Assembly (NCBI RefSeq): GCF_900496995.4
Contig: NC_044007.1
Span: forward strand, 558,001 to 622,000
Direction of reading: 5' to 3'
Length of the DNA stretch: 64,000 nt
From: Aquila chrysaetos chrysaetos
Lineage: Eukaryota > Chordata > Aves > Accipitriformes > Accipitridae
In this document: piece after piece, positions 21,708 through 35,601 of the stretch
How positions within the stretch are numbered: position 1 is the first letter of the stretch
Layout of the letters: each line of letters begins with the position of its first letter
Notes under the pieces: generated by a model
What the model saw: only the letters and a program-made list of their open reading frames with translations
The model's database searches: none
What the model was told of the DNA's origin: nothing
Made by a program: the position numbers and the translations under genes

Positions 21708-24700
21708 TCACTCCAGGCTCTGCCGGCTGCTCTCCTGGCAGGCAGCAGCCAGCTCTTTCTGGGTGCAGGCAGGCTGGTCGTGTGGCAGGACCCCCTCCAC
21801 CGCCTTGCCGCAGTTGTGCCCACCGCAGTCGTCCCCGCTGCAGTCATCCCCACCATGGTTATCCCCGCCGCAGTCATCCCCACTGCAGTCATCCCTGCGG
21901 CAGTCGTCCCCACTGCATTCGTCCCCGCTGCAGTCGTCCCCGCTGCAGTCATCCCCACCACGGTTGTCCCCACCGCAGCTGTCCCCACTGCGGTCGTCCC
22001 CACCGCGGTCGTCCCCACCGCGGTCCTCCCTGCGGCAGTCGTCCCTACCGCAGTCGTCCCCGCCGCAGTCGTCCCCGCAGCGCCGCGGGCAGGGGTGGCC
22101 GCAGGCGAGTGGCCGCGGGCAGGGCTCCTGGCAGCGCCAGCGCTCGGCCGGCACGTGGCACGGCAGGCGCTGCCGGTGGCCGCAGCGGGGCAGGACCTTC
22201 TCCACCTTCTTGAGGCAAGGGCCGCACTCTTCCCAGCAGAGCTTGGGGCAGGGGTGGCCGCGCTCGCAGGGCGGCCGGGCGCAGGGCAGGCAGCAGTGCG
22301 CCCGCCGGTGCTCGCGGTCGCGCGGGTGGCAGTGGCGCGGGCAGGGGTGGCCGCAGGGCAGCGGCATCCGGCACCGGCGCGTGCAGCCGCCCTCGGGGCT
22401 TTGCCTGAAGTCGGAGGCGTCCCGCACCGTCGCCGTCACCTCGGGGTGGTTTTGGCAGGTCAGCGCCAGCCCGTCGCCCACCAGGCCCTTGCTCTTCAGG
22501 GCGGCCAGGATCTCGGCCCAGAGCCGGCCGCCGGCGCCCCGCGCGATGCCTTCCAGGTCGCCGATGCAGTAGAAGCCCTTTCTGGCGCGGGAGAAAGCCA
22601 CGCAGATGCGGTGCCGGTCCCCGAGGAAGCCGATCCGCCCCTCCGGGTTGCTCCGCACCAGCGAGAGCAGGACGATGTCGCTCTCCTCCCCTTGGAAGTC
22701 ATCCACGGTGCAGACGGCAACCTTGGCCATGTCCCTCCTGGCCAGCAGCTGCCGGATGGTGGCCACCTGGCCGCTGTAGGGTGTCAGGACGGTGAGCTGC
22801 CCCTTGGCGTAGCCCTGCTCCAGCAGGTACTTGCAGAGGTGCACCAGGAAAGCGGCCTCCGAGCGGTTGCTGTAGCTGCCGGTGTGGCCGCTGAGGTCCT
22901 CGGCCCCCGCGTGCTGGATGAAGAAGACGCTGCTCTCGACGCCCTGCCCGGGGAGGGGGACACACGTGGGCGTCAGGGGACCGGCCCCGTCCTCGCACCT
23001 GCCCTGCGGTGGTCTTTGCCCCCACCTTGATCTTCTCGTAGCCGCCGACGGCCGGGTGGTCCCTCAGCGCCTCGTAGAAAAAGGGGACGAGCAGCTGGGA
23101 GATCTCCGGGCGCATGCGGTGCTGCTGGCGACACGGCGGAGGCTCGAGCCGTGGCGGCAGCCCCCCCGGCGCAGGGTGGGTGGCAGGGGGGGGTCTGACT
23201 CACCTGGCACAGCAGCTGCACGTGGGGGATCTCGTTGTTGATCATCCGCTCGAAGAGGGAGATGCCGAGGCGGTATTTCTTCTCCAAGGTGTAATCGGCA
23301 GGTTTGGGTCTCAGCTGCAAAGGGGGTTTGGCTCACCGTGGTGTGCCGACGGGCACCGGGGCGTGGGGCCAGGGCACCCTACCTGCTGGTGGTCCCCGAT
23401 GAGGATGAGGTGCTTGCAGGAGGCGGTGAGGCAGGTCAGGACGTGCGCCTCCAGGATCTCTGCAGCCTCTTCCACGATCACCGTCTGGGGCCGGACGCTC
23501 TGCAGCAGCTTGCGGTACTTGGCAGCCCCTGGAACCAGGCATGAGCCCGGTGAAGGAGCCGGCACCCCGGCAGGGTCCACCCAGCGCCCCGTGGGACATC
23601 CCCTGGTTCCCCTACCCCAGGCTCCTCACCCGCCTCCCACGGCCCCTTTGGGGGCAGGCACCAGCTCCAGCACCACCAGCACTGGCACTGGAGATGGCAC
23701 CAACACCACCACCAGCACTGGTACTGGATATGGCACCAACACCACCACCAGCACTGGTACTGGCACCGGCTCCAGCGTTGGCACCAACACTGGCACTGGA
23801 AGCTGCACCAGCACCGGCACCAGAAATTGCACTTTCGCCAATTTGCACTACCAGCACCAGCCCCAGCCCCCGGCGCGGTGGCTATCTCACCCGTGGTCGT
23901 CATCCCGATGACGCGGCTCTGCCTGAGGATCTGCAGGTCCTCCTGGAGCTGGTGCTGGGCCAACTGGGCTGCGCTCTGCTCGTACTCCTCCAGCCGCCTC
24001 GCCAGTGCCTCCTCCAACGCCTCGCCGTAGGCACCCAGCCACCGCCTGCCGCCGGCACGGGACGGGGTCACCGCGGGGGGCAGTCCCGGGCCACCAGCGT
24101 GTGGGGACAGGGACCCCGCACTGGTGCCGGGGTTGCCGTGTCGCCGGCCATCTCCTCCCCGGGGATCCACCGTGGGGGGGGACGGGTGGTGAGACCTGTA
24201 GAGCCGCCACCGGTCGCCGAGCCGGAGCTGCCAGAGGCTCCTCAGGTGCCCGACCTCCCTGTCGGTCATGGCATCGCTGTCCTGCAGCCGGCGGGCCAGC
24301 TGGGCGTCCAGCGGGCTGGGGACGGACAGATGGACGCGGCCGTCAGTGCCCCCACCACCAGCGAGCCCCAGCGTGTCCCTGGGGTCCCGGCCGGCAGGAG
24401 GGTGCAGGGCCGTACCCCTCTTCTTCGGGGATGATGTAGGCGAACTTCTCCCGGGCTCGTCTCCTCTCGGCCTCCGCGGGGTCGAACTCCTCTTCCTCGT
24501 CCAGGCACCGCTCGTCCCTGCGCGGCTCCCAGCTCTCCTCCACCTCAGGGCCCCCTCGGCCCCCCCCCGGCCCCTTGCTCCGTGCCTGGGGGCAGAGCCG
24601 TGGAAGCTCTGGGTGATGGCCCCGTGGGACGTGTGGGACCGTGCCCCGTGGCATCCCACTGGGCATCGCTGGGACGGGGTCAGCCCGCATCCCTGGGGAC

Positions 24701-27700
24701 TTGGGGATGAGGGCAGCCCTCCTCCTCCCCTGTCCCCAGGGCAGCCCCACGTCTGCCCCCCACCTCTGCCTGGGGTCCCCCCGGGGGCTCCCACTCCTGC
24801 TGAGTCACTCCTGCTGTGCCCGATGCAATTAGGGCTGGGGGTTTCCCAAGTTCCCCCCCCCGCCATGAGCCTGGCCGGGGCCGAAAGCGGCAGCGAGGGT
24901 CACCTGCCACGTGGTCCTGGCCTCGCCGCGGGCTCCCGTCCTCCGGCGGCACCGTGGGCTGCACCTGCAGCCACTGCAGCATGTCCAGATGCACAGCACC
25001 CTGGGGGGGGGGGTGACGGGGAAGGTTGATCTCAGCCCCAGCCCCCCAGCAGGGCTGCGACGGCCGCCCACACCCCCACCTTGAAGAGCAGGTCATCATT
25101 CATGATCTCTGTTTCCAGCTCGCTGGCGGTGAGGATGCCGCGGTGGAGCAGCCCCCGCACCTCTGTGTGGAAGGCGATGCTCTTCTCTTGCTCCTGCAAG
25201 GCGCTCCGCATCTGGGGGGGGAGGCAAGAGCCATTGGGGCGAGGTGAGAGCGGGACATGCCGAGCCCCTGCGGCCGGCGAGCTGCCGGGTGGGAGTGGGG
25301 GAGAGGGGCCCGGCCCCATACCTGCGCATACTGCCGCCGGCTGCCGGCCCCCCACGGCCCGCAGAGCGCTCTTTGCCGGAGCAGCTGCAGGGAGCAGCCC
25401 ATCACCTTCTTGCTTCGGCATTTTCCCCCGATGCGCACCACTTTGGAGGGCTGGAACTGGAGGATGCCTGGGGGAGGAGAGGGGCAGGCTGGCAGCCTGC
25501 AGGCCAACCCCATGGCCATGCCCAACTTGCCCACCGACCCCATGGCCATGCCCAACCTCCACACCAACCCCACAGCCATTCCCAACCTCCACACCAACCT
25601 TACGGCCATGCCCAACATCCACACCAACCCTATGGTCATACCTAACTTGCCCACTGACCCCATGGCCATGCCCAACCTGCTCACTGACCCCATGGCCATA
25701 CCCAACCTCCACACCAACCCCATGGCCATGCCCAACCTCCACACCAAGCCCATGGCCATGCCCAACCTCCACACCAACCCCACAGCCATTCTCAACCTCC
25801 ACACTGATCCCATGGCCATACCCAACCTGCTCACTGACCCCATGGCCATGCCCAACCTCCACACCAACTCCATGGCCATGCCCAACCTCCATATGAACCC
25901 CCCCAGCCATTCCCAACCTCCACACCAACCTTATGGCCATGCCCAACATCCACACCAACCCTATGGCCATACCCAACTTGCCCACCAACCCCATGGCCAT
26001 ACCCAACCTCCACACCGACCCCATGGCCATGCCCAACCTGCCCCCGACCACCCTGCCAGCCCGTGCCAGCCCATGGGCTGCTGCGTGCCGGTGCGGCGGC
26101 AGTGCTGCCCCGCGGGGAGCGTGACCCCAGCCGGCCGGAGCGGGGATGTGATGGGCAACAGCAACGACACCCATGAGCATCAGGCTGCTGGCGGGACGGG
26201 CACGCTGCTGGCTCAGCCCACGCCAGGCGCGAGGGGTCTGCGGGGAGGGGAACCGGGGCTGGGACCAGCACCTTCCATGAACTGGTCGAGGGCATGGTTG
26301 GTGTAGCACACCACCAGAAGGGGTGGCCGCTCCCCCCATGGTTCGCCCCCCTGGTTTCGCAGCAGCAGCTCCGTGATCTTGAGTCCGATGAAGGTTTTGC
26401 CTGGGGAGGAAAGTGCCGGCGTGCGCTGGGGGCAGGGAAAGCCCCATTCTGCCCCCACGGACCCCCGGCTGGGACGGTGCTGGGGGGCACCGCTGGGGTG
26501 CCAGCGCTGGCACCTACCTGTGCCGGGGGGGCCCTGAATAAGCACGAACTCCCTGCTCAGCGCCAGCCGGATGGCTGCGAGCTGAGACTCGTCCAAGTGG
26601 GGGAAAATCTTCGGGGACCAGACCTCCGGGTCCTCCAGGCTCACGGCAGAGAGGTCCACCGCCGGCTTCTCTCCCTGAAACAAAGAGTGGGGATGGGGTG
26701 CCCGTGGTGGTGCACCCCAGCCGGACTCTGCCAGCTGCGGCCGCAGTTGAGGGCAGCCGGCGTCTCCCCGGGGGAGTCCTGCGAGCCCTGCGCTGCCAGC
26801 GGGGTCCCTGCCGCGACTCACCTTCTCCTTGCCGTCCGGCAGCAGCGGCGCGAGGCTGAAGAGCCTGTCGGCGCCGAGGTGCGCGGGGCGGCGGATGGAG
26901 GGCTTGCAGTGCACCAGGTAGCGGCCGAAGGGCACGGCGGTGGGGCTCAGCTCCTGCAGCCCCTCCAGGACGTGCCGGTACGCCTCGAAGAAGGCTGGGG
27001 ACTCCACCATGGTGAAGCTGGTTCTTCCCAGGTGGGTGAGGAGCTGCCGGTGGCGATAGGTCTGGATGTGCAGCCAGATGCGGTCCCGGTGGGCCGCCCT
27101 CTGCTTCGGCACCCCGGCCACCACCCCGAAGAGCACGTGGCTGCAGTCCTCGGAGAGGAGGCAGGTGAGGGAGCCGCTCTTCAGGCACTCGGCAGCGGCC
27201 GGGCCGGTGCGGGGCAAGAAACGGGCCAGGTAGACGGGGCCGGCCAGCGTGGCGGCCACGGCGTGGAGCTGCACCCCCCGGTAGAGGCTGAGCGCCGCCC
27301 CGTCGCCGTCGGGGCCGCCGAGGGAGAACGCCGCCGCGATGCCGTCCCGCAGCGGCTTGAGGAAATCCTCCCGCAACAGTCGGAAGTGCAGGTCCAGGTA
27401 GGCTGCGGCACTCTCGTGCGCCCCGCGGCACAGGTTGGGGCGCAGCCGGCCCTCCGCCTCCCCAAAAAGCTCCTCGGGCGCGGGGATCACTGGCACCTCG
27501 CGGAAGTCGTCCCGCCAGGCGCCGGCGGGGCGGTGGCGGTGGGGGAAAGCCTTGTCCACCAGACGCCTGGCGTCGTGTAGGCGCTGCTGGATGAGCCAGG
27601 AGAATTGAAAGCCGCGGCTCTGGAGCCGCTGCACGGTGCAGAAGAGGAGGTCGACGGGGTAGCAGAGCAGCGTCGGCACGTGGCCGGGGCAGGCGGTCAG

Positions 27701-28192
27701 CAGGCGGTGGAGAGCGACCACCGTGTCCCCCACCACCTCCTGGGAGATCCGTCCCTCCCGGCACTGGAAGGTGTCCAGCTCCGTGATGAACCTCAGCAGG
27801 TCCCCCAGGATGAAATCCCGGGTCAGCAGCAGGGCCAGAAGGGGCGTGGGGGGCTGCCGCGCTCCCCCCTGCTCCAGGGCGGCCCCGAGGGTCCGCAGCA
27901 GTGTGTACACCTGGGCCGGGCTCAGGTCCCGGCGGGCCAGCAGCCGGCCCAGCTCCAGCGTGTGGTCCCGCAGGAAAGGCAGGAGCTGCCGGGGGCTGCT
28001 GTCGCAGAGCTGCTCCAGGTTGCCCAGGAGGTCGGGGGGCTCGTCGCTGCGCCCCGGCTCGGGAGCCGGCCAGCCATTGTACGGGGCGTCCCAGTCCCCA
28101 TCGGGGCTCGCCGACCGCCGTCGCTTTGGGCTCCAGGGCTGGGCGCGGGGTGGGGAGAGGTCCCGGCGGGACGGGGGGACGCGGCGTCGCAT
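21708..28192 (-). CDS. ZNFX1-like SF1 (UPF1-type) helicase with NF-X1 zinc fingers
   Basis: ZNFX1-family proteins are interferon-induced RNA helicases; human ZNFX1 is reported as a dsRNA sensor. Thirteen coding exons (minus): 28192-26822, 26674-26518, 26400-26272, 25467-25322, 25211-25080, 25000-24904, 24585-24416, 24315-24196, 24045-23891, 23528-23383, 23314-23204, 23124-23026, 22943-21708; about 1355 residues. Seen: basic N-terminus, ARM-like region, Walker A GPPGTGKT (about residue 505, split by an intron), [28 protein letters not shown] (motif II), ILIGDHQQ (III), HRMRPEIS (IV region), [19 protein letters not shown] (V), [17 protein letters not shown] (VI), then about three NF-X1 fingers ([29 protein letters not shown]). 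The tail is an 18-unit GDDC-type array. Canonical ZNFX1 (about 1900 residues) continues with more fingers and a C-terminal RZ finger, absent here. The join 24904/24585 has a frame conflict. The locus is not that of mammalian ZNFX1, so this is probably a paralogue. Confidence 0.88.
21807..22076 (-). repeat. Coding minisatellite: 18 pentapeptide units of the GDDCG/S type
   Basis: A 15-bp tandem repeat inside the last ZNFX1-like exon. On the minus strand it encodes [25 protein letters not shown] and similar units, 18 in a row with no frame break. It follows the CGHPCPRRC finger directly, where canonical ZNFX1 has CGEDC, so it may have expanded from that CG-E/D-DC. After it the frame reads [16 protein letters not shown], a decayed finger-like end, and stops at 21708. 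The 15-bp unit also opens frames on the plus strand (VVPTAV-type words), which are artefacts. Confidence 0.85.
23655..23835. repeat. Intronic tandem repeat (CACCAGCACTGGTACTGG-type)
   Basis: Imperfect repeats of about 36-42 bp built from ACCACCAGCACTGG and TGGCACCAACAC fill half of the 362-bp intron between the exons at 24045-23891 and 23528-23383. Confidence 0.7.
25504..26044. repeat. 30-bp minisatellite, about 18 copies, intronic in the ZNFX1-like gene
   Basis: About 18 tandem units with consensus CCCATGGCCATGCCCAACCT plus CCACACCAAC. All are 30 bp except one of 31 bp near 25895 (extra C). It fills most of the intron between exons 26400-26272 and 25467-25322. Because the unit is a multiple of three, frames stay open on both strands ([10 protein letters not shown] on plus, [10 protein letters not shown] on minus); these are not exons, as the flanking exons splice in frame across it. 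Confidence 0.92.
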
Positions 28193-28233
28193 CGGCCCAC
28201 GCAGGGACGGGGACGCGTGGCCCCCGGGCTGCG

Positions 28234-28314
28234 GCTGACGGGAGTTGGGGTGGGAGTGGGGGGTGTGGGGATGGGGGCTGCTCCCCTTCCCAGCCGGCCC
28301 CGGTCCCACTCACC
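28234..28314 (-). other. ZNFX1-like first intron, with a non-coding exon upstream
   Basis: On the minus strand a consensus donor (GGGGCAG|GTGAGTGGG) ends an exon at 28314, and an acceptor (ACTCCCGTCAG) precedes 28234; the ATG lies 42 bases into that exon. A 5' non-coding exon extends upstream of 28314 to an unknown start, probably near 28600-28650. Confidence 0.5.
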
Positions 28315-29396: not shown

Positions 29397-32300
29397 ATGT
29401 TGGAGACGCCCGGCATGGCGGCGAAGGAGAAGGAGGAGGCGGCGGCGGCGGCGGAGCTGGCGGAGCTGCTGTCCCCGGCGGCGGGCCAGGCGGCGCGGGA
29501 GGGCGCGGCGGAGGCGGCGCTGGCCCTGTCGGGGGATGCGGCGGGGCGGCGGCTGCTGGTGGGACAACCGGCGGCCATGGCGGCCTTGCTGGAGCTGGCG
29601 GCGGGGCCGTCCCCGCCGGCGGCCCGCCACGCTCTGGGCTGCCTGGTGAACCTCTCGGCCGAACCGGCGGCCCGCGAACCCCTGTTGGCCGCGCTGCCAG
29701 CTCTACTGGGGCTGCTGCCGGGCGGGCCGGCCTGCGGGGTGCTGGCTAACCTCTGCCGGGAGCGGGGGGCGGCTCGGCGGGTGCTGCGGGGCCTGCGGGA
29801 GGGCGGCCCCGGGCTGGAGCCGCTCCTCCAGGCGCTCGGTCAACCCCGGCCGCCTTCCCAGCTCGGCCCGCTGCTCTGCAACCTCAGCCAGCTGCCCGAG
29901 GGCCGCCGTGGGCTCCTCGATCGCTCCCGGTACGGTACGGCAGTGCCCGGGGCCGGGGAGGGGGGGTGTATGGGGGGTGTGTGTGTGTCTCTCCGGCCCG
30001 GTGTGACGGTTCTTCTCCCGCAGGTGCTCGGTGCAGCGGCTGCTGCCCTTCACGCAGTACCAGGACTCCGTCGTCCATCGCCGGGGAGTCGTGGGGGCAC
30101 TGAGGAACTGCTGCTTCGAGTACGGTGAGAGCCCCGGGCCGAGTCTAGCCGCTGCCCCGGCCCGTGGCACCGGTTGCTGGCACCTGCCGGGGCGTGCTGC
30201 CCTCGCCCTGGGCTGCGAGCGGGCCTGCCAGCGCGGCTGGGAGGGTGCCGGGTCTGGCTGGGGTGGAGTTTACTTTCTTCTTCGCAGCCCGTCTGGTGCT
30301 GTGTTTTAGACTGGTGACCAAAGCAGGGCTGGTAATGCCGGCCGGGTTTAGCCAGCGTGGGTGATGCTGGCTGGGTTTAGCCAGTGCTGAGCAGCACTCG
30401 GGCAGCGTCAAGGCCGCCTCTGTTTCTCACCAGCCAGAAAGTTACGGGGGGGATGATACAGGCGGGACAGCTGACCCCCATGGACCAGAGGGTTGTCCCC
30501 AACCTTACAGCGTCACAGTCAGCTCAAAAATGGGGGGCCAAAGCAGCCATGGCGTGGGGGCAGGCTGGGCATCGGTCTGGGCTGAGCGATCAGTGCCTTT
30601 GCATTGGTCAGGGCTTTTGGTTTGTGTTTGTTTTGGTTTTTCCCTTCACTTTATCTTGACCCACAAGTTTTTCTCGCTTTTGCCCTCCCCATTCTCTCCC
30701 CAGTTCCACTGCTGGGGCAGGAGTGGGTGAGTGGCTGGGTGGGGGCTGAGCTGCTGGCTGGGGTCAGCCCACCGCAGGGGTCCAGGCTGGGCTTGCCACC
30801 CTGGCTGTGGTGGCTCCTGACCCCAGGCTGTCCCCAGAGGACCACGAGTGGCTGCTGAGTGAGGAGGTCGACATTCTGCCCTTCCTCCTCCTGCCTCTAG
30901 CAGGCCCCGAGGAATTTCCTGAGGATGAGATGGAAAGTAAGTGGGTGTTGGAGTGGGTGGTGGGCGTCTGGGGGCTGCTGGCCGTGTGCTTCCCCCTGAG
31001 TCTGTCTCTCCCCCAGGGCTGCCCGTGGACCTGCAGTACCTGCCGCAGGACAAGCAGCGAGAGGAAGAACCTGACATCCGGAAGATGCTGCTGGAAGCCA
31101 TCATGCTGGTGGGTCCTTCTGGTGCAAATTGCTGTGGGGCTGAGGGCGAGAGCCCAGGCGGGGGCTCCTGGGAGTAGAAAGTTGTTCAGGGCTGCTACAG
31201 AAGGTGCTGTCTGCCAGGAGATCCTCACGGAGAAGCGATGATGTTTGGGCTGGACGAGCAGGCAGTGAGGTGGATTGAAAATCGGACGGGCCCTGAGGGC
31301 AGTGATCAACGGCACGAAGTCTAGTCAGTGGCCCGTGACCGGTGGTGTGCCGCAGGGGCTGATATGGGGTCCAGTCCTGTTCAACATCTTCATTAATCAT
31401 CCGGATAACGGGGCAGAGCGTACCCTCAGCACATTTGCAGATGACACCGAGCTGGGAGGAGCAGCTGGTACACCAGAGGGTCGTGCTGGCATCCAGAGAG
31501 ACCTCGCCAGGCTGGAGAAATGGGCCGACAAGGACTTCGTGGAGCTCCTTGAGGAGAAGGAACGACCTTAGGCAGCAGGACGCAGAGGGGAACGATGGGC
31601 TGGAAAGCAGCTCTGCGGACGAGGCCCTGGGGGTCCTGGTGAACGCCGCGCTGAACACGAGCCAGCAGCAGCACGCTCCTGTGGCAAAGGCGGCAAAGGG
31701 TGTCCTGGGCTGCATGAGGAGCAGTGTCACAGCAGGACGAGGGACATCTGCTCAGCACTGATGAGGCCACACTGGGGGTGCTGGGTCCAGTGCTGGGCTC
31801 CCCAGTATGAGAGAGACATGGACACAGTGGACATAGTCCAGGGAAGGGCCACCAAGATGCTGAAGGGTCTGAAGCATCTCTGCTGTGAGGAAAGGCTGAG
31901 GGAGCTGGGACTGCTCAGCCTGGAGAAATGAAGGCTTGGGAGGATCTCGGCAATATCTATAAATGCCTGCTGGGAGGGAGTGAAGAGGAGCCAGACTCTT
32001 TCCAGTGGCGCCCAGTGCCAGGACCGGAGGCCACGGGCACAAACTGGAACACAGGAGGTGACACTTGAACATCAGAAAACAATTTTTCACTGTGAGGGTA
32101 CTGGAGCCCTGGCACAAGCTGCCCGGGGAGGTGGCGAAGTCTCCGTTCTTGGAGATACTCAAAGCCCATCTGGCCATGGTCCTGGGCCACCGGCTCTGGC
32201 TGGCCCTGCTTGAGGACCAGGTATCCCTTCCCACCTGTGATTCTGTGGGTGACAAGGACCAAAGAGCCGGGGTCCCCCTCTCCCCACGGGCAGGCTCTCC

Positions 32301-32989
32301 GTCCCCATTCCTACGTTGGAGGGCTGTCAGAGCAGCTCTGTGACAGCCCCCCCATGCCGTGGGGCATTTCATTTCCCACTCGGAGAGGCACCATCAGCCC
32401 AGCGGAGAACCCGGCCGAGCCCTGCCGTGCAGCATCCCTTGCCGGGTGCTCTCAGCACTCTCACGGCCGTGCCGGGCTCCCCGCCCACAGTGCTGCTTTT
32501 TGTCTCTTTCGCAGCTCACAGCCACCAAGGCCGGCCGGCACACGGTGAGGGAGAAGGGGACGTACCTGATCCTGCGGGAGCTGCACCGCTGGGAACGGGA
32601 GCCCGCCGTGCTGGCTGCCTGCGAGAAGCTCATTCAGGTGGGGAAGAGGATCCCTGGGGGGAGGCAGACGGGTCTCCGGGGTGCGGAGCTGCTCCGAGGG
32701 CTCTGTCCTGCCTCTCCGCTCCCCCGCTGGGCTCCTTGCAGAGAGCTTTGGGGGGCTCCCACCAGCCTGTCCCCCCTCCCTGAGCCTTCCTCCCCCCTCC
32801 TGGGAAAAGGTGCTGATCGGGGACGAGCCCGGCCCAGGGATGGAGAACCTGCTGGAGGTGAACATCCCCGAGGAGGTGGAGCAGCAGCTGCAGAGCCTGG
32901 ATCGGGAGGAGGAGGAGGAACAGGAGCGGTGGCGGCGGGAGCAGGAGGAGCGGGGCTCGACGCCGCGCTCCGAAGAGCCGTCGCGGTGA
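29397..32989 (+). CDS. HGH1: HGH1, ARM-repeat chaperone for eEF2 folding
   Basis: HGH1 (FAM203) is a cytosolic armadillo-repeat protein that, with the TRiC chaperonin, helps fold translation elongation factor eEF2. Six exons join in frame to 375 residues (human about 390): 29397-29929, 30024-30124, 30838-30936, 31017-31108, 32515-32637, 32810-32989. Seen: a Leu/Ala-rich N-terminal ARM region ([45 protein letters not shown]), then [63 protein letters not shown] and [11 protein letters not shown], and a C-terminal acidic/Glu-rich tail after [17 protein letters not shown]. This segment order is diagnostic of the family. The ATG at 29397 has a Kozak context; a second Met lies seven codons on. The acceptor of the last exon follows a short purine tract (gggaaaag) after a C/T run. 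Intron 4 contains a CR1 copy. Confidence 0.95.
31200..32252 (+). mobile_element. CR1-type non-LTR retrotransposon fragment, sense, in HGH1 intron 4
   Basis: Starts near 31200 and ends at cctgtgattctgtgggtgac. A frame at 31275-31571 encodes the C-terminal part of a reverse transcriptase ([20 protein letters not shown], then FADDTELGG with the catalytic aspartates present). The 3' half (31750-32250) has CR1 3' wording (gaggccacactgggggtgct, gaaaggctgagggagctggg). It is 5'-truncated and broken by frameshifts, so inactive. Confidence 0.85.
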
Positions 32990-33277
32990 GGGGCTGCTGT
33001 GCTCGGCCGGGTTGCCCACAGGCTGCGGCTCCTGTGGTGGGGGGATCTTTGCCGGGCCCCTCGGGGCAGTGGCTTGGCCCCGTTTTTCCCCGCTGCTTCT
33101 GAAGCAAATCTGGGGCCCTGCGGGGCAGGGGTTCCCCCTCGACTCACGCAGCTCCGCCGCTCCCGTTGTGGAAGATTTGGGAAGGGGCTGTTGTTTCCTG
33201 CCCCATGCCGTGGGACTGCCTCTCTGCTGGCCCCGGGAGTTCTCCCGAGGGCTGAGCTGCCGCAACGTGCCTTGTAA

Positions 33278-33288
33278 AATAAAATAAA
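33278..33288 (+). terminator. HGH1: HGH1 polyadenylation signal (tandem AATAAA)
   Basis: AATAAAATAAA about 290 bp after the HGH1 stop codon, followed by G/T-containing sequence. Confidence 0.85.
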
Positions 33289-33299
33289 AGGTTTCCAGT

Positions 33300-34030
33300 C
33301 CAAACCCGCCATGGTCCCCAGGAGAAGTTTGGGGGGGTGCTGGGGGTGGGGGTGGGGGGGCTGGGGGCCATGGGGACAGGGTGCAGGTGTCTCCTGTCAC
33401 TGTCACAGCAGGTCCCCTCCTCTGGCCCAAGCGCTGGGGTGCTGCGGGTAGTTGTTGGGGGGGGCACAAGCTCAACCCCCTCCCGCTCCAGCCTGGGGCA
33501 CGCTCCATCCCTGGGACCCCCCCCATGCCATGACACCCCTCACCTCCCTGCTGCCTTTAGGGGTGTCCAGATGTGGCCATAGCTCCCTACCTGTCCGGCA
33601 TGGGGGGGACAACCCCTCCCCTTAGTTCACAGCAGGGTCTGGTGGGGGATTCTCCTTCCCTGGTGGGGAGTGGAGGGAAATTTAGGGGGGGTGGGTAGGT
33701 TGGGGGTCATCAGTGGTCACCCCGCTGCAGGATTTTGGGGCCGTGGACCAACAGATGTGCTCCTTCGGTGCACAGCAGCCAGGAGAGAGCCATCTCGGGA
33801 GGGTGTCACCCTTCCCCGTGTCCCCCTGCGTGTGTGTGGGGGTGTCCCTATCTGTGGGGAGGGGTCCCTATCCATGGGGGGGGGGGGTCCCTATCTGTGC
33901 AGGTGGGTCACGGAGGGGCTGGGGGAGGCTGTGCCAAGCCTGTGCTCGGGGACCACCCCCCTAAAACCCCCCGGACCCCCCCAAAAAGTCGTGTGCCCCC
34001 CCCCCCCCCCCCCCCGTGTCCACGGACGCG
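33300..34030. other. Intergenic HGH1-MROH1, simple G/C-rich sequence
   Basis: No gene seen. Contains many G-runs and a pure C-run of about 22 bases at roughly 33995-34015, directly before the palindrome. Confidence 0.6.
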
Positions 34031-34050
34031 CTGCTCCACGGTGCTCGGCG

Positions 34051-34140
34051 GTGGCGGTGCCGCTCAGCTCCGCTAGGGGGCGCCGGTGGCGCGGTACCGC
34101 GCCACCGGCGCCCCCTAGCGGAGCTGAGCGGCACCGCCAC
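34051..34140. repeat. Perfect 90-bp palindrome carrying two facing CTCF-type cores
   Basis: The two 45-base arms are exact reverse complements with no spacer, centred between 34095 and 34096 (GGT|ACC). The match continues to about 34046-34145 with one mismatch per arm. Each arm contains CCGCTAGGGGGCGCC, close to the CTCF core CCAC(C/T)AGGGGGCGC: plus strand 34070-34084, minus strand 34121-34107. The motifs point at each other. It lies about 200 bp upstream of the MROH1 first exon donor. Confidence 0.9.
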
Positions 34141-34147
34141 GGCCGGC

Positions 34148-34309
34148 GCGCATGCGCGCAAAGCCACCGCCCACACCAGCTTCGCTCGTCACCCTGCGCG
34201 CGGGGGGGCGTGGTCTTTTGGGGCGTGGTAAAGGAGGGGGCGTGGCGCGCGTACCCGGAAGCGGCGCCGTGGGCGGGGCCGAGTAGGTCCCGGTGCGGCG
34301 GCTCCCGCG
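34148..34309 (+). promoter_or_regulatory. MROH1: MROH1 CpG-island promoter and first non-coding exon
   Basis: Contains a perfect NRF1 palindrome GCGCATGCGC at 34148-34157, an ETS-type ACCCGGAAGCGG at about 34253-34264, and a consensus donor (CCCGCG|GTGAGTGAGG) after 34309 that ends a non-coding exon. No TATA box. Confidence 0.6.
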
Positions 34310-35601
34310 GTGAGTGAGGCCGGTGGGAGCGGGGAGGGGGAACCGGGGATTATTGGGATATAGAGGGGCTAGTTGGGACGGGCAAGGGGGGACCCGGTAC
34401 TGCCCGCTCCCTAGCCGGTGGGGAGCTGCTTGCTCTCCCCGGGGGGCTCTGGGACCTAGGGGTACCCCTCCGGTACACCCCCCCCGGTTCCAGCCTGTGC
34501 TCCCCTTCCCACTCCCGGAGGAAATTAACCCCCGTGGGGCTTCCCCGTGGAGACCCACCGTTGAGGGCGAAGCTCCGGTACCCGTTGCCAGAGCCCCCCG
34601 CCGCTGGGAAGCCGGGAGGGTCGTAGCCCACCCCCACGCCGGGCGGTGGGATTCCCTTCCCGGCTGTGTTTCTTCCCGAGGAAAAGCAGGGCGAGGCTTG
34701 CCTTCTTTCGACCTCCTCCATGACACGGTCCCCGCTCCGTAGGGGAGGCGAATGGGGTTGTAAAAGGTCGGGGTGCCACGGCAAAGCCGGGGAACGAGCC
34801 CTTTGGGACCGGTTTGGCCGGCTGCCTGACCTGGCCAGGGTGGAGAAGGCTCCGTAGGCAACGCCGGGCTTGGGGCAGATGGAAAAGTCTTGAATGTCAG
34901 CCCTCAAATCTTATTTCACTGAAAACTTGTTCTCGTCTGTCCCAGAGCTGGTCAGTTAAAGGAGCTGGACCCAACTCTACCCCCATGGCAGGGCTGCCAG
35001 CCCTGGAAACTTCGCTCCCTCGCTTTTCTTCTTGGTTTTAGGGACAAATATTTGGAGCGCGGCCTCAGCTCCCGCAGCGCGCGAGGGAATCGCTAACACC
35101 ATCTCACCGAATCTAGGGGCTGTGGTTACAAACAGCGATTCCTCGCAATAACGCGAGGGGAAATGGCGTGGGGTGGTTTAGCTTTCTAAGTCTGTTTTGC
35201 TGATGTAAAATGTCCTCCCGTTTGCAGGTCACGAAGGAGGACGTGGAGGGGAGCGGAACCCGGGATGCGCTCCCTCCGGCTCCGACCTCTATAGGGACGG
35301 TCCTGGGGACCGATGGAAGCGCAGTGCCTGCTGCCTGCTGGCCTCTCGGAAGCAGAACTCGGGCAGGTCATCGTCTGCCTGCAAGGAACTGCTGTTTTGC
35401 CTTCCCCACGGCTGCTGTAGAGCATCTCCTCCACGTCGCTGTGCCCAGCGTTGGCTTTCCGACCTGGACCAGAACCGCAAACAGTCTTCTCCGTGAAAGT
35501 AAAGGCAGCGTGTAAAAATAGGTTCCCCAGGGATCCCCGGGTTTGAGACGGAGGAAGCTGCCAACTGCCTTCTGCTGGTGGGGAAGCTGAAAACACGGAG
35601 C
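34310..35601 (+). other. MROH1: MROH1 5' intron and leader region
   Basis: Between the first non-coding exon and the start codon. Acceptor-like sites occur at 35226-35227 (CCCGTTTGCAG) and near 35534 (GGTTCCCCAG), so how much of 35228-35601 is exonic leader is unresolved. Confidence 0.4.

Follow-up and report, generated by a model that had tools for sequence, protein, structure and literature searches.

A perfect 90-bp palindrome with two facing CTCF-like sites upstream of an MROH gene in Aquila chrysaetos chrysaetos, and the possibility of recurrent fold-back duplication in GC-rich DNA

The stretch of DNA analysed here, referred to as the window, covers 64,000 nucleotides of the Aquila chrysaetos chrysaetos assembly (C4:558001-622000, within a 77.3-Mb contig). 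On its plus strand, the HGH1 domain DUF383 lies in 30750-31238 and the HGH1 C-terminal domain (DUF384, E 1.8e-16) in an open frame at 32344-33102, with AATAAA words at 33278-33288 on the 3' side of that frame. Farther downstream, 34 plus-strand open frames between 35503 and 61561 were scanned, and six of them match HEAT_Maestro_2 of the MROH family (best E 4.5e-16, frames pooled). A palindrome at 34051-34140 lies downstream of the HGH1 domains and upstream of the HEAT_Maestro_2 frames, in agreement with an earlier interpretation of this DNA made without database searches (the sequence-only reading), which had placed it just upstream of an MROH gene. We take this gene to be MROH1, which is the name used in that reading and the one suggested by the gene order HGH1-MROH1.

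In 200-bp steps, the CpG observed/expected ratio is 0.10-0.31 from 33200 to 33999 and 1.03-1.11 in the steps starting at 34000, 34100 and 34200. To the right of the palindrome are an exact word GCGCATGCGC at 34148-34157, presumably of NRF1 type, three exact plus-strand GGGGCGTGG words at 34205, 34220 and 34237 (34205-34245), which we take to be of KLF/SP type, and a plus-strand CCGGAAG at 34255-34261, assumed to be of ETS type. As read by eye, the MROH gene presumably has its first exon at 34262-34309 on the plus strand, with a splice-donor-like GTGAGT following at 34310. Transcription of the MROH gene would start at about 34262-34300, and the centres of the two CTCF-like motifs described below would be roughly 150-210 bp upstream of that start. 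C-run stretches are found close to the palindrome at 33956-33982 and 33996-34015, and the second of these is a plus-strand run of 20 C, slightly shorter than the 22 or so counted previously. G-quadruplex-type runs also flank the palindrome on the plus strand, at 33331-33381, 33665-33706 and 34325-34391.

The segment 34051-34140 was confirmed to be a perfect palindrome in which two arms of 45 bp (34051-34095 on the plus strand, 34096-34140 on the minus strand) adjoin without a spacer. The next pair outward, 34050/34141, is mismatched and is followed by four matched pairs, giving 50-bp arms (34046-34095 and 34096-34145) that are 98% complementary, an extension that had also been described correctly. 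Given the local base composition and an assembly of 1.23 Gb, the number of 45-bp arms expected by chance is about 8e-16, which rules out a chance palindrome. In 214 kb of the assembly, made up of the window plus fifteen 10-kb stretches, the second-longest spacer-less arm is 9 bp, and no perfect arms of 16 bp or more with 0-100 nt between them were found in the same 214 kb besides the palindrome itself. These figures support the conclusion that the palindrome was produced by an inverted duplication and not by chance.

A repeat family or transposon at this locus was also considered and is unsupported. A 201-bp query (34000-34200) matched itself and its own reverse complement only, in an assembly search that passed over simple repeats and words of very high frequency. 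The arms of six other repeats, described below, have no more than two 10-mers in common with the window arm. There were no Rfam matches at gathering score within the window. As single-stranded DNA the palindrome would form a hairpin of -81.1 kcal/mol (z -16.35), but any such palindrome would be equally stable and the value has no bearing on function. In human chromosomes, palindromes of 80-100 bp occur about 84 times per chromosome when up to four mismatched pairs are allowed, and the longest perfect arms reach 140 bp, according to the portions of PMC7680136 and PMC13155455 used here. The size range of 80-100 bp is therefore shared with the eagle palindrome, but this palindrome and the six other repeats differ from the human ones in being perfect and GC-rich, with spacers of 0-3 nt.

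Each arm holds a CTCF-like core. The forward core, CCGCTAGGGGGCGCC, lies at 34070-34084 on the plus strand and faces a reverse core at 34107-34121 on the minus strand, with the 22 bp between the 15-mers that the sequence-only reading had estimated; between the CTCF 19-mers the linker is 20 bp. CCGCTAGGGGGCGCC agrees with the CTCF core consensus CCASYAGRKGGCRS at 13 of 14 positions. Matrix scoring of both arms gave a good match, since a single matrix, entered by hand, assigns 15.43 bits to the window arm and 15.42 bits to site FII of the chicken beta-globin insulator cHS4. The two arm sites are the top CTCF scores of the window, where the remaining matches reach 14.9 bits at most. The likeness to FII extends to the bases themselves, 12 of 14 being identical to the FII core as printed in PMC6746451 (the sequence of the FII oligonucleotide is given in PMC3014928; see also the part of PMC12885311 cited below).

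How much weight a score of this size can bear depends on the control. A first shuffle control, trained on sequence that contained the sites, put the 95th percentile of the maximum per 2.4 kb at 16.1 bits, which spoke against significance; the control used in its place was trained on the flanks. In simulated sequence of flank make-up, 99 sites of at least 15.4 bits arose in 3 Mb on both strands (about once per 30 kb), so that the CTCF match is good but is no proof. There is also a difference in arrangement, cHS4 FII being a single site and the window holding a pair. An upstream motif for ZF9-11 marks strong insulator sites in the passages of PMC12885311 consulted. This motif, found in about 13-15% of CTCF sites, is partly matched in the window arm, at 6 of 10 positions with linker 8, and a match as good occurs at 3.6% of local positions at linker 8 and at 20.5% when any linker of 5-10 is allowed.

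Word-pair searches through the 1.23-Gb assembly brought up another six perfect inverted repeats, all situated in GC-rich DNA; their arms measure 35-54 bp and their spacers 0-3 nt. CTCF cores are present in the arms of two of them, and SP-type words instead in those of the other four. The search words were hand-chosen, so the seven repeats are not a random sample. The strong-core CTCF search considered pairs of CCRSYAGRKGGC at gaps of 10-40 bp, with the backwards pattern as control. Facing pairs were found at two places, the window and a locus on C16 (L022), both of which are perfect inverted repeats, and diverging pairs at two others (L024 and L025); the backwards control gave none in either orientation. 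L024 is again a perfect palindrome, and L025, on C37, is non-palindromic, with 15 of 31 pairs mismatched. Perfect inverted repeats thus account for three of the four close inverted strong-core pairs, and no facing strong-core pair made up of two unrelated sites was found at these gaps in the assembly. Tandem strong cores showed no excess, with 6 matches where the backwards control gave 10.

The L022 repeat (1478-1574 of its locus; G000 C16:1471776-1471872) has 47-bp arms separated by the spacer AAA, with facing CTCF cores of 18.8 bits. The stretch around it is CpG-rich and promoter-like and contains YY1-type and ETS-type words. Three of 25 frames near it match ADP-ribosylglycohydrolase and one of 25 matches tektin, and we take the surroundings to be the ADPRS-TEKT2 neighbourhood. 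L024 (1477-1568; G000 C12:23104519-23104610) is a spacer-less palindrome with 46-bp arms and diverging cores of 18.9 bits, and it adjoins a minus-strand ATG at position 1463. The frame that starts at this ATG is presumably RWDD3; a comparison of 30 residues with solved structures gave no matches. Looser searches added nothing to this set. A relaxed CTCF core in facing orientation occurred at 12 places, against 6 in the control, and the inverted repeats among them were the window and L022, with no further one. The exact facing word AGGGGGCGC, at gaps of 0-30, occurred at three places, as many as in the backwards control, and was palindromic at the window alone.

An ETS-type word served as a control of another kind. 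Facing ETS-type pairs occurred at five places (three in the backwards control), and none of the five was palindromic, with 4 to 11 mismatched pairs each. For an SP 10-mer there were 112 facing matches against 63 in the control and 76 diverging matches against 84. After nested matches were collapsed, the 50 facing matches listed corresponded to 36 distinct places with at least two perfect inverted repeats, and the 50 diverging matches listed to 42 distinct places, also with at least two; the resulting fraction of 4/78 among distinct places listed is a lower bound. The facing repeats are L031 (119-191, arm 35, spacer 3; C2:78125018-78125090) and L032 (100-177, arm 39, spacer 0; C4:25970549-25970626), the latter chosen by eye among nested matches. 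The diverging ones are L033 (91-170, arm 39, spacer 2; C12:3959490-3959569) and L034 (70-180, arm 54, spacer 3; C12:41566769-41566879). Their arms hold no CTCF-grade word, the best scores being 4.4 bits in L032, 4.3 in L031 and 2.4 in L034.

Some smaller points attach to the SP-type loci. A CTCF-grade word of 15.28 bits stands on the minus strand of L033 at 24-42, 48 bp outside the inverted repeat. To the left of position 70 in L034, the outer left arm seems by eye to be tandem-repeated just upstream, with CCCGCCCCCCGCCCGCGCTCGCCCCGCCC occurring twice. A facing SP match whose 12-bp arms lie 6 nt apart was left out of the inverted-repeat count, and a match at C4:12567975, whose arms of 15 bp lie 12 nt apart, could be an older case. 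By Fisher's test, the proportion of perfect inverted repeats among the CTCF pairs (3/4) differs from that among the ETS pairs (0/5; p 0.048) and from that among the distinct facing SP places in the matches listed (2/36; p 0.004), contrasts which mainly reflect the rarity of close inverted CTCF pairs made of unrelated sites.

The seven repeats have a common anatomy. Their arms measure 35, 39, 39, 45, 46, 47 and 54 bp (mean 43.6, sd 6.4) and their spacers 0, 0, 0, 2, 3, 3 and 3 nt. Arm GC is 80-98% and flank GC is 65-74%, and over L031-L034 the CpG observed/expected ratio is 1.01-1.31. The four SP-type arms have up to seven 10-mers in common with one another. All arms stop abruptly, and an immediate resumption of matches, over four pairs, is seen in the window alone. 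In 180,416 bases of fetched loci, no further inverted repeat was seen whose arms reached 14 bp and whose spacer was 8 nt or less. There was no clear decayed repeat among the pairs listed, all seven being perfect, which would be expected equally from a young natural class and from an artefact.

The near-identity of the arms can be turned into rough limits on age, using an assumed 1.5-2.5e-9 substitutions per site per year. Pooling all arms, with that of the window extended, gives one mismatch in 310 pairs, a divergence of at most 1.5% and a limit of about 3-5 My, a figure biased to the young side by searches that required exact words in both arms and by the practice of closing each arm where the first mismatch occurred. 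For the window by itself, one mismatch in 50 pairs sets the limit at about 19-32 My at the same rates. A recent date for the window duplication would fit the near-identity of its arms.

We propose that the palindrome is a real, recent and short inverted duplication made by fold-back (template switching), that such events recur in the GC-rich DNA of this genome, and that this one doubled a CTCF site resembling cHS4 FII; we give the proposal an even chance of being right. While a GC-rich, CpG-rich promoter was being copied, a strand would have turned back on itself or changed over to the opposite strand. It would then have copied about 45-50 bases of newly made sequence before rejoining its template. 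At six or more further GC-rich places, the same process would have produced perfect arms of 35-54 bp joined by a loop of 0-3 nt. In the window, the copied piece would have held the FII-like CTCF site, through which the promoter would have gained two facing copies. We infer both the mutational mechanism and the age; spacers of 0-3 nt and abrupt perfect arms are what a fold-back copy or an opposite-strand switch would leave, and they suit fold-back duplication.

As four of the seven repeats are without a CTCF core in their arms, the doubling of CTCF sites looks like the by-product of a more general process, and CTCF is probably the cargo of the duplication rather than its cause. The idea of a recent inverted duplication of a CTCF site, put forward in the sequence-only reading, can accordingly be kept as regards the duplication itself, and its recency is consistent with the near-identical arms, but an isolated CTCF event is at odds with the existence of six other repeats. 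In more general terms, and tentatively, with doubt slightly outweighing belief, we suggest that GC-rich, CpG-rich promoters in this genome may recurrently make a reversed copy of 35-54 bases, leaving a loop of 0-3 nt, and so turn single regulatory sites into double ones in mirror image. Such a mutation would explain the two facing strong-core CTCF pairs found where gaps of 10-40 bp were searched.

The nearest known counterpart comes from great apes, where template switches often leave perfect inverted repeats, with a median copied length of 12 and a maximum of 128 nt, and are enriched near poly(dA:dT), as stated in the part of PMC7954356 drawn on here. The eagle repeats are like such short-range template-switch mutations, described by the four-point model, in that a local inverted copy has formed a perfect inverted repeat of a length within the reported range. 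They are unlike them in that the arms of 35-54 bp are GC-rich and CpG-rich, and the ancestral one-arm state is presumed. Poly(dA:dT) is scarce beside them, the flanks within 100 bp holding one A8 run among the seven loci, with C20 at the window. The GC-rich repeats are therefore a variant of the known kind, whose events sit near poly(dA:dT), and by analogy this association would count against the fold-back reading. Among the entries listed in literature searches, nothing dealt with repeats of this type in birds or at CTCF sites, or with their origin as an artefact of long reads.

The alternative that survives best is a technical artefact, in which the true sequence is one-armed and the second arm was added by polymerase fold-back in library preparation or sequencing, or by gap filling, at poorly covered GC-rich promoters. 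We consider this possible, though on the whole doubtful. Sequence of 80-98% GC is hard to read, and all seven repeats are perfect with arms in exactly that range of GC and of similar length (35-54 bp), much as an artefact would have it. These arms, however, stop after 35-54 bp within promoter-like sequence that is unique and unbroken, which is unlike the fold-back of a whole read. The arm lengths and spacers also differ among the seven places, there is no N in 203,393 fetched bases, and the arms of the window continue past one mismatch into four matched pairs, all of which argue against an artefact. A fold-back artefact next to the C-run had been named at the outset as the main alternative. 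The artefact remains a serious rival, but a G or C run of at least 8 lies within 100 bp of only two of the seven repeats (C20 at the window and G12 at L033), so the run is not a general cause.

Another possibility is that CTCF itself drives the process, with bound CTCF blocking the replication fork and triggering fold-back, such that CTCF sites are preferred targets. The excess of perfect inverted repeats among strong-core CTCF pairs (3/4, against 0/5 for ETS and 4/78 for SP among the matches listed) points in this direction, as does L033 as a fourth repeat if its 15.28-bit word 48 bp beyond the arm is counted. These proportions nonetheless hinge on how abundant unrelated pairs are for each hand-chosen word, and the lack of a CTCF core in the arms of four of the seven repeats weakens a CTCF-specific origin, which we regard as unlikely. 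Since a preference for CTCF sites is compatible with fold-back duplication, the confidences given to the two overlap. It is very unlikely, finally, that the palindrome is older and that its arms have stayed identical through recurrent template switching or arm conversion together with selection for a symmetrical CTCF site: template switching is reported to homogenise inverted repeats (PMC8604942, in the part cited), and the window as a single case permits an age of up to about 19-32 My, but seven places with one mismatch in 310 pairs speak for youth or artefact over many separate maintenances, a figure that is itself biased by the exact search words and by the ending of arms at the first mismatch.

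If fold-back duplication at these places is real, it would be a mutational route by which whole factor footprints are doubled in mirror image within promoters, acting in GC-rich DNA, a setting in which the template switches of great apes show no concentration. The window would then offer a natural, nearly exact CTCF-site dyad, in which the effect of facing CTCFs on cohesin and on promoter direction could be examined. If the repeats are artefacts, the seven places would reveal a systematic fold-back error in the GC-rich promoters of a long-contig assembly, which would be relevant to anyone reading promoters.

Should both CTCF-like sites be bound, each would stop cohesin from one side, and together they would form a small two-way stop. 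In mouse cells, CTCF bound in forward orientation a short way upstream of the start, at a median of about 79 bp, activates, and CTCF farther upstream represses upstream antisense transcription, orientation mattering less there, according to the part of PMC12695661 consulted. By this comparison, a pair about 150-210 bp upstream would be less likely to act as a close-in activator than to hold back upstream antisense transcription or transcripts running on from HGH1. The TP53 promoter has a pair of CTCF sites described as palindromic in orientation, both of them occupied according to EMSA, and paired CTCF sites (2xCTS) have linkers of 30-40 and 33-58 bp in the sections of PMC4562119 cited. The palindrome resembles these in having two close CTCF-like motifs in a promoter-like setting, motifs and setting alike being predicted from sequence, and is unlike them in that its whole 45-bp arms are mirror images and its linker is 20 bp. 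Because this linker is shorter than those described, simultaneous binding of both sites is uncertain; CTCF binding and any function of the pair are putative. Insulation of MROH1 from its neighbours is likewise a prediction. One of those neighbours had been read as an interferon-type gene. The frames scanned held no interferon gene but did include a ZNFX1-type helicase, in minus-strand open frames at 21708-28309 that match AAA_12, ZNFX1 and, weakly, AAA_11. ZNFX1 is interferon-induced, and this helicase gene is perhaps the one that was meant.
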